Assembly: GCA_027371775.1 (NCBI GenBank)
Contig: DAHXLG010000004.1
Span: 1-44,419 of the forward strand
Reading direction: 5' to 3'
Length of the DNA stretch: 44,419 bases
DNA from: a bacterium
GTDB taxonomy: Bacteria; Pseudomonadota; Alphaproteobacteria; CAJXXZ01; DAHXLG01
Shown here piece by piece: positions 14,017 through 24,002 of this stretch (position 1 is the first letter of the stretch; each line of letters starts with the position of its first letter). Made by a program: the position numbers and the translations under genes. The notes under the pieces were generated by a model that was not told the DNA's origin, searched no databases, and worked only from the letters and a program-made list of their open reading frames with translations.

Positions 14017-14787
14017 CTATTTGAGCAAATATTTTCCTAAATTATAACTAGTTCTATGATATTGACAAAAACCATGCTCTCTAATTGCAGCAACATGCAA
14101 GGTAGTACCATATCCCTTATTTCGATTAAAACCATAAACTGGAAATTCAACATCTAGACGATCCATAAACGCATCTCGTTCAACTTTTGCAACAATAGAC
14201 GCCGCAGAAATCGCTTGTACTTTTTGATCACCCTTGATTATAGCCGTACAATTTAAACCAAGCTCATCCATCCATTTAGGTTTTCTTCCATCTATAATCA
14301 GCCTATGATTGATAAACGAAGTACAATTTTGCACATTTAACAAATCTAAATCATGTTGCTCATCATTAGTTAACGAAACTTGTCTTTGAAAAGAACATAC
14401 TTGCGGATCTACCAATTGCGCTATCGAACCTTGATCTGCTAGTGGATCAATTGCTCGGTCAGCCAATGAGTCTGCTGCTGAAGATTGATCAGTGAATGGA
14501 TCAAGCGCTCGCAAAATTGCTTTATTATAAGCATAAGCCAATCCAAATTGATTAATTTCCTCAACCAAGCCAATTCCAATATTCCATGTAGCAATATCTT
14601 TTATAATCTCTGACATTTCCAAGCGCTTTTTGTGACTAATACTTTTCGAATCCACAAATTTTGTCTGACTGACACAATTAAGCTTAAGCGCGCAAACATA
14701 AATGGGCCCAGCCCAGCAGCCATAGCCAACTTCGTCGATACCAACTATAGAAAAATCGCTAAAAGATGGATCAACAAAATCATTCAC
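14017..14787 (-). CDS. rnhB: Ribonuclease HII with a repeat insertion
   Basis: Cuts RNA at single ribonucleotides and RNA-DNA hybrids. The four acidic residues are present: D18 and E19 (GIDEVGYG), D166 (LIIDGRK) and D205 (VERDAF), with the SIVAKVERD motif. Two oddities stand out. The conserved GRG that reads the ribose is GYG here (21-23). About 60 extra residues (roughly 95-155) sit between the helices, holding two copies of an 18-residue unit: RALDPFTDQ at 93 and RAIDPLADQ at 111. The enzyme is therefore 256 residues rather than about 200. The start is GTG at 14787, overlapping the lipoprotein stop by eight bases, so translation is probably coupled. Confidence 0.92.
   Translation of the reverse strand: MNDFVDPSFSDFSIVGIDEVGYGCWAGPIYVCALKLNCVSQTKFVDSKSISHKKRLEMSEIIKDIATWNIGIGLVEEINQFGLAYAYNKAILRALDPFTDQSSAADSLADRAIDPLADQGSIAQLVDPQVCSFQRQVSLTNDEQHDLDLLNVQNCTSFINHRLIIDGRKPKWMDELGLNCTAIIKGDQKVQAISAASIVAKVERDAFMDRLDVEFPVYGFNRNKGYGTTLHVAAIREHGFCQYHRTSYNLGKYLLK
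14404..14511 (-). repeat. Two 54-bp in-frame repeats inside rnhB
   Basis: Units at 14458-14511 and 14404-14457 encode the related 18-residue blocks starting RALDPFTDQ and RAIDPLADQ. About nine residues at the start of each unit are well conserved and the rest has diverged. The 54-bp length keeps the frame. The source of the insertion is unknown. Confidence 0.75.
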
Positions 14788-20320: not shown

Positions 20321-20524
20321 CAAAAGCAAAATGCGATGTATGTTTTTCATTTATAACAAATTTCTGTTTTAAAATCTAGCCTTAAAGATTTTTTATAAAA
20401 CATACATGTTCTTTTATCGTAAGAAAATTGAACTTATGATGAAAATAAATTTCGCATATCAATTTTGCAAATACTACTTTCTAATATAAAAATCCACTTT
20501 CGCAATACGCAATTTCAAAAAAAC

Positions 20525-21838
20525 ATGATAGACTCAACACATATGCGTATTTTTCTACTTGGCATGAGCGGCATTGGCATGCAAGCTCTTGCAAAAATTG
20601 CACAGCAATCTGGATACGAGGTATCAGGAAACGATGATTCTCTACCAATCCAAGCACTAATAGAATCTGGAATTACATATCAAAACACAATTCCTGAAGA
20701 TACAGATTATATAGTATATTCTTCTGCCATCAAAGAAAGCCATCCTTTAATGATTACTGCACGTGAACGTAACATTCCATGCATTAATCGTACAGATTTT
20801 TTAACCGACTATATCCAGTTTAATCCACAAAAAATACTAATTGCAGGAGCACACGGGAAAACAACAACAACATGTATGCTCGCGTATATTTTAGGCATGA
20901 AATCTTACGCAATTGGTGGAATGGTTAATGGATACAAATTCTCTGGCAACAACGAATTAGATGAATTTACAGCAATCGAAACTGATGAATCAGATGGCTC
21001 ATTCATCAAATGGAAAGGTTCTTATAAAATTCTTTTAAACGCAGATTATGAACACATGGATTTCTTTGAAACAGAGGTAAATGCTCTCAAATATTACAGA
21101 AATTTTGCCATAAGAGATATCGAAACAACCAAACTTATCATAGAAGCTGAATGCAAAAAATTCCTTGCATTAGAAAATCATCCTAATATGATTATATACG
21201 CAGAAAACGGAAAACATGATTGTCATTTCTCATATAGCAACATTACATGCAAACCTGATGGACTATATTTTGATATCATAAATCATATTGCAAAGCTCAC
21301 GCTACCAATTTTCCTGCCATTGTTTGGAAAACACAACGCATCGAATTTCACAGCACTATATGCATTGCACGCAAATCTTGGCATGACACACGAAGAAATA
21401 GCAACAAAAATTGCAAAATTTCCTGGTGCAAAAAAACGCATGTACAAAATCAAAACAGAAAATGGATTTAACCTATATCTAGATTATGGACACCATCCAA
21501 AAGAAGTAGCAGCAGTACTAAATGCAGTATGGGAACACAAAAAAACAAGACCCAATGTTGTGCTAGAGCCACATCGTTACTCAAGGTTGCAATATACATG
21601 GCAACAATGGCCAGAAGCATTAAAAGGTAATAAAGTTTTTGTTGTTCCAATACACACAGCATCAGAAATTCCAATTGAAGGTATCACACGGGAAAATTTC
21701 GTAAAATTCTTACGTGAAAACAATGTAGATGCGCATCTTTTAGAAGATTTCAATCAATATAAAATGGATAACGAAACAATATGTTTTAGCGCAGGAAAAC
21801 TATCTGCAATGCTAGAAAAATTAGTTAAAACAAGATAG
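20525..21838 (+). CDS. murC: UDP-N-acetylmuramate--L-alanine ligase
   Basis: Cytoplasmic Mur ligase that adds L-Ala to UDP-MurNAc, the first peptide step of peptidoglycan synthesis. The N-terminal Rossmann domain starts RIFLLGMSGIGMQALAKIA. The ATP loop is GAHGKTTTT (about 108-116), followed by ETDESDGSF. The C-terminal domain has LYLDYGHHPKEV and PHRYSRL. GAHGKTTT and DYGHHP favour MurC over the recycling ligase Mpl. I take ATG 20525 (437 residues); ATG 20543 (MRIFLL) is as plausible, and neither has a good ribosome-binding site. It is not inside a dcw cluster, so that cluster is scattered. Confidence 0.9.
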   Translation: MIDSTHMRIFLLGMSGIGMQALAKIAQQSGYEVSGNDDSLPIQALIESGITYQNTIPEDTDYIVYSSAIKESHPLMITARERNIPCINRTDFLTDYIQFNPQKILIAGAHGKTTTTCMLAYILGMKSYAIGGMVNGYKFSGNNELDEFTAIETDESDGSFIKWKGSYKILLNADYEHMDFFETEVNALKYYRNFAIRDIETTKLIIEAECKKFLALENHPNMIIYAENGKHDCHFSYSNITCKPDGLYFDIINHIAKLTLPIFLPLFGKHNASNFTALYALHANLGMTHEEIATKIAKFPGAKKRMYKIKTENGFNLYLDYGHHPKEVAAVLNAVWEHKKTRPNVVLEPHRYSRLQYTWQQWPEALKGNKVFVVPIHTASEIPIEGITRENFVKFLRENNVDAHLLEDFNQYKMDNETICFSAGKLSAMLEKLVKTR

Positions 21839-21994: not shown

Positions 21995-22130
21995 TTATTT
22001 TTCATCAACAACTTTCTTTCCAAGATACTTCTTATGAAATACATTCTCAGTGACTAAATTCTTAGCAGTTACATTCTTAATGGCAGCTTTTTCATCAACA
22101 ACTTTTTTAGAAACTGCCCTTCTTTGCGCT
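21995..22130 (-). pseudogene. Out-of-frame remnant of the POT transporter's C-terminal tail
   Basis: The minus-strand frame reads RRTLAQRRAVSKKVVDEK and AAIKNVTAKNLVTENVF, ending KKVVDEK at 21995. It has the same Lys/Val/Ala-rich style as the tail of the transporter upstream. Removing one copy of the 16-bp duplication at 22131-22162 joins the transporter frame to this one, so this is tail sequence lost by frameshift. Confidence 0.7.
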
Positions 22131-24002
22131 AATGTTCTTCTGCGATAATGTTCTTCTGCGCTGCTTTTTTGTAGAAGGTTTAGCAAGGCTCCTCTTAGAA
22201 ACAGCCCTTTTCACACCAGCGCTTTTCACAACTGCTTTTTTAGACGCATCCTTCTTTGCGCTAACTTCCTTTGACTTGGACTTTTTCACATCAGCTTTCA
22301 CACCTTCTGTTTTTTTAGCCACAACTTTTTTTTCACTAGACTTATCTGAAACTTCTTTTTCTTCTGGCTTTTTAGAAGCAACGCTTTTAACAACTCCCTT
22401 ATTTTCAAGCTCTAATGAATTTGAAGGTTTTTTTGCATGAGCTTTTTTCTTATTGAAAAACATATTTTCACTCTCTTTCTTATTATCAGCCCAGAACGTT
22501 TCAGCTTGCGTACTTAAATTTTTTAAAGGAATATTTCTAATAACATGATCACTTTTTTCAATCGATTTATATGACGCTGCAATAACTAGTTTTATAAAAT
22601 AAAACATAGGCAAAAAAGCCACAACAAACAAAGTGTTATATAATGCCACAGTCTTAAATCCGTTTGCGTAAATTGATAGCGAAACTGATGCATCATAAAA
22701 TCCTTCTTTCGTAGGCACAGCCATAAATCTACCAATGTAAATACCAGCAACGTTTGCAAAGCCCATAAACAACATCACAAGCGACATCATAAATCCACGC
22801 AAATGCACAGGACTAAGCGCTGTAATCTGAGACTGAACAAAAGGCCATACAATAAGCTCTCCAAATCCAGTAGTTATAACCGCTGCTAAGAAATAAAAAT
22901 AAGATACTCGATAATCTTGATCCGCGTTCAAACAACCATAATATAGCAATCCAAAACACAAGCTAGTTGTTAGCATGCCAAAAATGAATTTGGAAATTTG
23001 ATGTTTATTACTACGACTTTTTCTAATAGAAACAAACAAGCCAATAATAATGATTGAAATTGGATTAATCGATTGTGAAACAGTTGCAGGAATTGGATAT
23101 CCAAAAACATAAGATGAAACATTTCTATCTGCAAATAAAGTAATTAACGAACCTAACTGCATTTCCATTGCAAAAAACACAATTAAACAAACCATCAATA
23201 AACCAAGTGCAATCAATCTCTTTCTTTCATTTGATTTGATAATGACACCAAAAAATACACACAACACTGCCAGACCAAAATAATGAAATAGCCGCGTGGT
23301 GAATAAATTGCCTTCAATTACATGGCCAAAAAAGATACCAAATGCCAGACAAACAATAAGCATTATATCGAATATAGATAACCCTGCGTAACGACGTCTC
23401 AACAAATTTGGATTAGGGCTCGCACCATGTTCCCCAAAAACATACCGATTTTTAAAGAAAATAACCAAACTAATCAATATGCCTAAAGTAGCCAAGCTAA
23501 ATCCATAATACCAACCGTAGTAATAAGCAATGTATCCACACAAGATCGAAGCTAATGCTGACCCAATATTCACCCCAACATGCAAGAAAACAAATCCACG
23601 CATGCGATTAGCATCATTTGCATAGTAAAATGTACCTAGTAAACTATTTATATTTGCTTTGAAAAAACCGGTACCCACAACAAGCATTCCAAGACCCATA
23701 AAGAAATAACCTGAATCAAACATAGAACATAAAATTGTTATCTGCCCGAAAGCAATTAGTATACCGCCAAGTACTATCATCCTTTGAAAACCAAATACAC
23801 GATCAGCAAGCACGCCAGCCAGCACAGGCGTTGAATACACAAGGGCAGCTGTGACTGAGTATGCTGCATAAGCACGTGCATCTTGGAATCCAAAATGTGA
23901 TATTAGGAATAAAACCAAAAGAGTTCTAACACCATAGTAGCTAATTCTTTCAAACAGCTCTACTGCAAAAACAACTCTAAGGAAACTGGGAATCGTGTTC
24001 AT
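22107..24002 (-). CDS. POT/PTR-family proton-dependent peptide transporter with a lysine-rich tail
   Basis: A 631-residue inner-membrane transporter. The first helix has the POT signature ELFERISYYGVRTLLVLFL. VGTGFFKANINSLLGTFY and FGELIVWPFVQSQITALSP are the other family blocks, so it probably imports di/tripeptides with protons. The membrane part ends near residue 490. Then comes about 115 residues dominated by Lys, Ala, Val and Ser (SKKPEEKEVSDKSS, KKAVVKSAGVKRAVSKRSLA), resembling histone H1-like bacterial tails and unlike normal POT proteins. A 16-bp duplication near the end shifts the frame and replaces about 40 further tail residues by QKNISAKKGSF. AGGAGG precedes the ATG. The transporter call is firm; the role of the tail is unknown. 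Confidence 0.9.
   Translation of the reverse strand: MNTIPSFLRVVFAVELFERISYYGVRTLLVLFLISHFGFQDARAYAAYSVTAALVYSTPVLAGVLADRVFGFQRMIVLGGILIAFGQITILCSMFDSGYFFMGLGMLVVGTGFFKANINSLLGTFYYANDANRMRGFVFLHVGVNIGSALASILCGYIAYYYGWYYGFSLATLGILISLVIFFKNRYVFGEHGASPNPNLLRRRYAGLSIFDIMLIVCLAFGIFFGHVIEGNLFTTRLFHYFGLAVLCVFFGVIIKSNERKRLIALGLLMVCLIVFFAMEMQLGSLITLFADRNVSSYVFGYPIPATVSQSINPISIIIIGLFVSIRKSRSNKHQISKFIFGMLTTSLCFGLLYYGCLNADQDYRVSYFYFLAAVITTGFGELIVWPFVQSQITALSPVHLRGFMMSLVMLFMGFANVAGIYIGRFMAVPTKEGFYDASVSLSIYANGFKTVALYNTLFVVAFLPMFYFIKLVIAASYKSIEKSDHVIRNIPLKNLSTQAETFWADNKKESENMFFNKKKAHAKKPSNSLELENKGVVKSVASKKPEEKEVSDKSSEKKVVAKKTEGVKADVKKSKSKEVSAKKDASKKAVVKSAGVKRAVSKRSLAKPSTKKQRRRTLSQKNISAKKGSF
22131..22162 (+). 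repeat. 16-bp tandem duplication in the transporter tail
   Basis: Two adjacent copies, AATGTTCTTCTGCGAT and AATGTTCTTCTGCGCT, differing at one base. Sixteen is not a multiple of three, so the duplication shifts the reading frame of the POT transporter C-terminus. Confidence 0.9.

Follow-up and report, generated by a model that had tools for sequence, protein, structure and literature searches.

The window, that is the whole analysed stretch of 44,419 nucleotides, carries on its minus strand a gene coding for a transporter of the POT family that ends in a long lysine-rich tail. The sequence-only reading of this DNA had described such an open reading frame (ORF), and its position and composition were confirmed; the ORF has a length of 631 amino acids. 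The lysine-rich tail is real and is unusual for the POT family. The region comprises the following features:

22107-24002, minus strand: uninterrupted ORF of 631 amino acids with ATG start, coding for the POT transporter and its tail
22575..24002, minus strand: POT-family core, residues 1-476, with 14 hydrophobic segments (PF00854, TIGR00924, alignment with 11 relatives, Foldseek)
22110..22574, minus strand: C-terminal extension on the cytoplasmic side, residues 477-631 (hydropathy, tails of relatives, AlphaFold model)
22110..22487, minus strand: lysine-rich low-complexity part, residues 506-631 (composition: 35 K, 5 R, net charge +26)
22120-22160, minus strand: 16-bp tandem duplication of 2.6 copies with 92% matches, whose +1 frameshift results in the stop codon at 22107-22109
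21995-22109, minus strand: lysine-rich continuation, out of frame (KKVVDEKAAIKNVTAKNLVTENVFHKKYLGKKVVDEK, then stop), within the ORF 21995-22186

The neighboring gene on the plus strand (20465-21838), which is convergent to the POT gene, codes for a MurC-like ligase that appears divergent, as it scores below the MurC equivalog cut-off (263 versus 335 bits).

The source assembly represents a reduced genome and has a size of 840 kb in 168 contigs, a G + C content of 28% and a completeness of 84%; the genome-wide rankings given below cover approximately 753 kb of these 840 kb. Its 16S rRNA gene places the bacterium in the Alphaproteobacteria, with Tistrella as best match (approximately 82%). The ORF at 22107-24002 is the single match to PF00854 in this genome, and none of the seven genomes of order-mates contained a PF00854 match.

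The core of the protein was matched by PF00854 with 135.9 bits (cut-off 27) and by TIGR00924 with 216.7 bits (cut-off 130.2). In the alignment with 11 relatives it retains the conserved columns E15, E18 and R19 (the ExxER motif in TM1), K115 (TM4) and E382 (TM10), which we take to be the catalytic and coupling residues of POTs. It deviates from the FYxxINxGS signature by having FLHVGVNIGS instead, where H141 (23580-23582, minus strand) replaces a tyrosine that is nearly invariant in the 11 relatives; this exchange might alter proton or substrate handling. An AlphaFold model, for which the alignment was shallow (six sequences), had a core of fair quality, its N-terminal half reaching a pLDDT of about 80; it was compared to solved structures by Foldseek. 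The best match was DtpA (6gs4; E=3.5e-20, TM-score 0.77 by target), and TM-scores to POT structures were mostly 0.7-0.8 by target. Separately from this model, DtpA, DtpB, DtpC and DtpD were identified as solved relatives, with DtpC, DtpA and DtpD as the best. Since the profile, fold and catalytic-residue tests all agree, the core is kept in the POT family despite its variant signature. The whole core with its fold, the ExxER motif, the TM4 lysine and the TM10 glutamate is common to E. coli DtpA, DtpB and DtpD (PDB 6gs1, 8b17, 4q65), to which it is about 26-29% identical in structural alignments, whereas the ORF differs from these proteins in its extra tail of approximately 152 residues and in having His141 where a tyrosine is usual.

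Hydropathy analysis and the positive-inside rule revealed 14 hydrophobic segments, the basic loops lying on the face expected to be cytoplasmic; this agrees with the MFS fold of 12+2 helices and cytoplasmic N- and C-termini that characterizes POTs. The even number of segments and the positive-inside loops, together with the homology to DtpA, place the C-terminus in the cytoplasm. The description as a normal POT transporter and the proposed cytoplasmic position of the tail are thus both upheld, the former by the two profile scores, the motif residues and the match of the model to DtpA. Judged from its sequence and family membership, the core is a POT/PTR2-family, DtpA-like, proton-coupled di/tripeptide symporter with 14 transmembrane segments and predicted transport activity. 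It would operate as other POTs do, presumably importing host- or environment-derived peptides as an amino-acid source, and substrate transport should not require the tail.

The extension after the last membrane helix has a length of approximately 152 residues, of which approximately 108-126 form the lysine-rich portion. The earlier description of about 115 residues dominated by Lys, Ala, Val and Ser was therefore right as to the existence of a lysine-rich tail but gave too small a size for the extension as a whole; its limits also have to be revised, as the lysine-rich coding pattern extends beyond the stop codon of the ORF, to position 21995, in a different frame. The final 126 residues contain 35 K, 19 S, 13 V, 12 A, 5 R and 14 acidic residues, which gives a net charge of +26. 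In the AlphaFold model a linker (residues 493-522) is predicted to be helical, and residues 524-631 are predicted to be disordered (pLDDT approximately 28-44, all below 50).

POT relatives were searched in 60 related genomes, 385 genomes of the class and 398 genomes of the phylum. Across these three sets the closest relative was 35% identical, and the relatives inspected ranged from 25 to 35%. No comparable tail was found at any of 60 POT loci (a few of which represent the same gene twice), where at most 37 residues follow the last span; the longer ones of these tails are rich in acidic residues. The only POT in a scan of genome contigs, from Algoriphagus (28% identity), had no such tail; among seven POT loci in a scan of viral contigs, none with a complete gene had a long basic tail, locus L185 being left aside as unusable. 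A literature search for POTs with lysine-rich tails yielded nothing relevant. The claim that the tail is unlike that of other POTs agrees with these results. The sequence-only reading had also named close relatives lacking the tail as evidence against its view, a condition that applies here only in part: the 60 POTs do lack the tail, but none of them is close, with the best at 35% identity and no POT in the order-mates. As far as sampled, the tail appears lineage-specific, the sampled relatives all being distant (at most 35% identity), and tails of this kind have not been seen in the POT family within the sample studied here.

The sequence-only reading had compared the tail to histone H1 and considered a fusion with a histone-like gene. 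The isolated tail indeed matched the Pfam model HC2 (PF07382) with 26.6 bits (E=7.6e-6) and the NCBIfam H1-like model (NF038053) with 25.0 bits (E=1.9e-5), but these scores are far below the respective cut-offs of 40 and 80 bits. With its sequence reversed, the tail still scored 24.7 bits against HC2, and none of six exact-composition shuffles of the tail was matched. Since the reversed tail matches and the shuffles do not, the HC2 model responds to the spacing of lysines in either direction, so that the order of the residues holds no homology signal; a score independent of direction fits low-complexity convergence and not descent. No other PF07382 match or H1-like gene was found in the genome itself, and HC2 matches in order-mates occurred only within a PEAK-repeat protein. 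The latter, from order-mate G001, has 694 amino acids consisting mostly of EAKEPEAKEP repeats (L034, 1102-3186, minus strand; G001:C1, approximately 212.4-213.9 kb). What the tail has in common with HC2 and the Burkholderia H1-like family is a low-complexity composition rich in Lys, Ala, Val and Ser; it differs from both in scoring below the cut-offs, in scoring equally when reversed and in being attached to a membrane protein. A true fusion with a histone-H1/HC2-like gene was rejected on these grounds and is highly improbable. Profile matches to HC2 and H1 models can be compositional and call for caution.

The tandem duplication near the end of the gene alters the last 20-25 residues or so and relocates the stop codon. 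The frame changes because 16 is a multiple of three plus one. Past the stop codon at 22107-22109 the other frame remains open and lysine-rich for about 37 codons, coding for KKVVDEKAAIKNVTAKNLVTENVFHKKYLGKKVVDEK, to position 21995, and discounting one 16-base unit puts this continuation in frame with the tail, which would yield a protein of about 663 amino acids. Two families of direct repeats, D1 and D2, have copies on both sides of the junction; their spacing is a multiple of three within each side and 133 (= 132 + 1) across the junction, offset by the duplication. Downstream of genes in this genome, few alternative frames (8 of 900, about 1%) stay open over 42 codons and contain 9 or more lysines. 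Beyond composition, the continuation and the tail showed no significant similarity at the peptide level (p=0.26), and the argument for a continuation hence relies on the frame, its openness and the DNA repeats common to both sides. Before the duplication the tail probably ended later, or the assembly contains an error. We read the frame change as a recent event or an assembly error; the exact end of the tail, which looks weakly constrained, should not be over-interpreted.

An artefact of sequencing or assembly could concern the duplication alone or the entire join of core and tail. The source is a draft assembly (168 contigs, 84% complete), and the duplication accounts exactly for the frame change. 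Against an artefact, the tail lies in the interior of a 44-kb contig, and core and tail form one unbroken frame of 631 codons with a codon-position composition that is continuous from one to the other; the GC3 of the tail (0.32) resembles that of the core (0.28), as expected for a translated region. Moreover, short tandem duplications of a similar kind occur elsewhere in the genome (31 in 753 kb, this one included, about one per 24 kb). An artefact is thus considered quite unlikely. The proposal that the tail had grown by repeat expansion received weak support: apart from this single 16-bp duplication the self-similarity of the tail DNA is marginal, with 17 of 300 codon shuffles reaching the observed value, and repeat expansion across the whole tail was not retained. 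The locus illustrates that the end of a low-complexity tail can be rewritten by one short tandem duplication.

The lysine richness goes beyond chance: within the 753 kb ranked, the tail comes first in lysine content, both when the last 100 residues of each of 522 ORFs are compared and in any 100-residue window of the 414 ORFs of at least 150 amino acids (30 K). It is also the longest and most basic tail after the last transmembrane segment among the 15 multi-TM proteins found (152 residues with 43 K/R, followed by 87 residues with 15). No homologous copy of the tail was matched elsewhere in the genome, and a search of 371-372 genomes of the class at E<=1e-4 retrieved no tail homolog except a ribosomal protein bL21. 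This nearest match in the class sample, named by eye, belongs to another alphaproteobacterium (L149, 1504-2049, minus strand) and has a long KKTAA-repeat tail, which is read as convergent composition. Lysine-rich C-terminal low-complexity regions as in bL21 and DNA topoisomerase I are of the same kind, which is already documented for prokaryotic proteins (PMC6821194), but they sit on nucleic-acid-binding proteins, whereas the tail described here is on a peptide transporter.

Basic C-termini also occur on unrelated proteins of the genome, namely Ppx/GppA, FtsH, CTP synthase and TopA (the last three named by eye). A net charge of at least 8 was found in 2.2% of the C-terminal 30-mers of the genome and in 1.9% of those of one order-mate, compared to 0.2-0.4% of internal ones; the tendency towards K/R-rich C-termini is present in order-mate G001 and absent in the G006 sample. 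The Ppx/GppA phosphatase homolog (PF02541; 9560-10786, minus strand, in the window) has approximately 90 extra K/R-rich residues at its C-terminus, ending in RTQKDRRYMRHKKNNSKGANTKNAK. K/R-rich ends were further observed in a CTP synthase-like, an FtsH-like and a TopA-like protein and in an unnamed membrane protein of the same genome. Proteins with K/R-rich tails are located as follows:

Joined contigs L069+L071, 28412-30178 and 21217-23136: K/R-rich-tailed proteins
Joined contigs L072+L073, 14771-17104 and 8520-10049: K/R-rich-tailed proteins

The explanation that we favor, with moderate confidence, is that of an ordinary POT with a lineage-specific, disordered polycationic tail that derives from low-complexity growth at the 3' end of the gene and has a loose electrostatic or near-neutral role. 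The tail would have arisen by such growth, without a histone gene having been captured, and would be fast-evolving, with an exact sequence and end that are weakly constrained. With its charge of +26 it may lie on the anionic inner leaflet or on other polyanions near the membrane by non-specific electrostatics, and it may slightly tune or stabilize the transporter or be nearly neutral. We consider near-neutral or non-specific contact likeliest because many proteins with no relation to each other show an enrichment of basic C-termini in the genome and in one order-mate. The gene clearly illustrates the appearance of lysine-rich low-complexity C-terminal tails on mutually unrelated proteins of reduced, AT-rich genomes. 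Several points speak against this interpretation. The tail is the extreme of the genome in length and basicity, which could mean a selected function, and drift is not obviously able to hold the charge so consistently positive. Growth by slippage is also undemonstrated, since the self-similarity of the DNA is marginal outside the 16-bp repeat. Furthermore, the tail is close to the core in its base composition at codon positions, and the duplication could stem from a mistake in the assembly.

If the tail is functional, a disordered polycation would control a POT post-translationally or determine where it is localized. One conceivable function is that of a regulatory membrane switch, by analogy to the C-terminal domains (CTDs) of ProP and BetP, in which the tail would rest on anionic lipids when the ionic strength is low and be freed at high cytoplasmic K+, and its K+-dependent release would change transport activity. 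The CTDs of ProP and BetP provide a precedent, being sensitive to both K+ and anionic lipids (PMC10710835), and they share with the tail that it is long, charged, in this case basic, cytosolic and attached to a secondary transporter. However, the tail is unrelated to these CTDs in sequence, so that the likeness is by analogy only, and no amphipathic segment was found in it: the hydrophobic moment is at most 0.27 across residues 475-537, which include the predicted helix. POTs are not known to be osmosensors, and the end of the tail has been changed by a frame-shifting duplication. A switch of this kind is therefore unlikely.

Contact with nucleic acids or ribosomes would be another possible function, in which the tail would bind rRNA, mRNA or DNA at the membrane and thereby aid co-translational insertion, as thought for the basic tails of Oxa1/YidC2, or tether the nucleoid. 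In prokaryotes, lysine-rich low-complexity regions occur preferentially in proteins that bind DNA or RNA (PMC6821194), basic tails of the YidC2 type are important for function (PMC8546722), and the composition of the tail is like that of HC2. That resemblance is compositional, though, there is no known need for such contact in a substrate transporter, and the tail is kept by none of the relatives inspected, which makes this function improbable. It is likewise a long shot that the tail is a putative polyanion-binding module by which, in a reduced symbiont, the POT is tied at the membrane to RNA, ribosomes or the nucleoid; if true, a solute carrier would here employ an H1-like tail in a novel way.

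Two further proteins with unusual sequence features were observed. In the window, an RNase HII-like ORF (named by eye; 14017-14787, minus strand) has an apparent internal insertion with repeated motifs of the DPFTDQ/DPLADQ type. Order-mate G001 encodes a protein of approximately 1035 amino acids (L199; G001:C1, approximately 281211-284318) that apparently has a signal peptide, is strongly basic in its N-terminal part and contains two IQ motifs resembling those of eukaryotes (ATKIQALFRGRS); it is a candidate host-facing protein.
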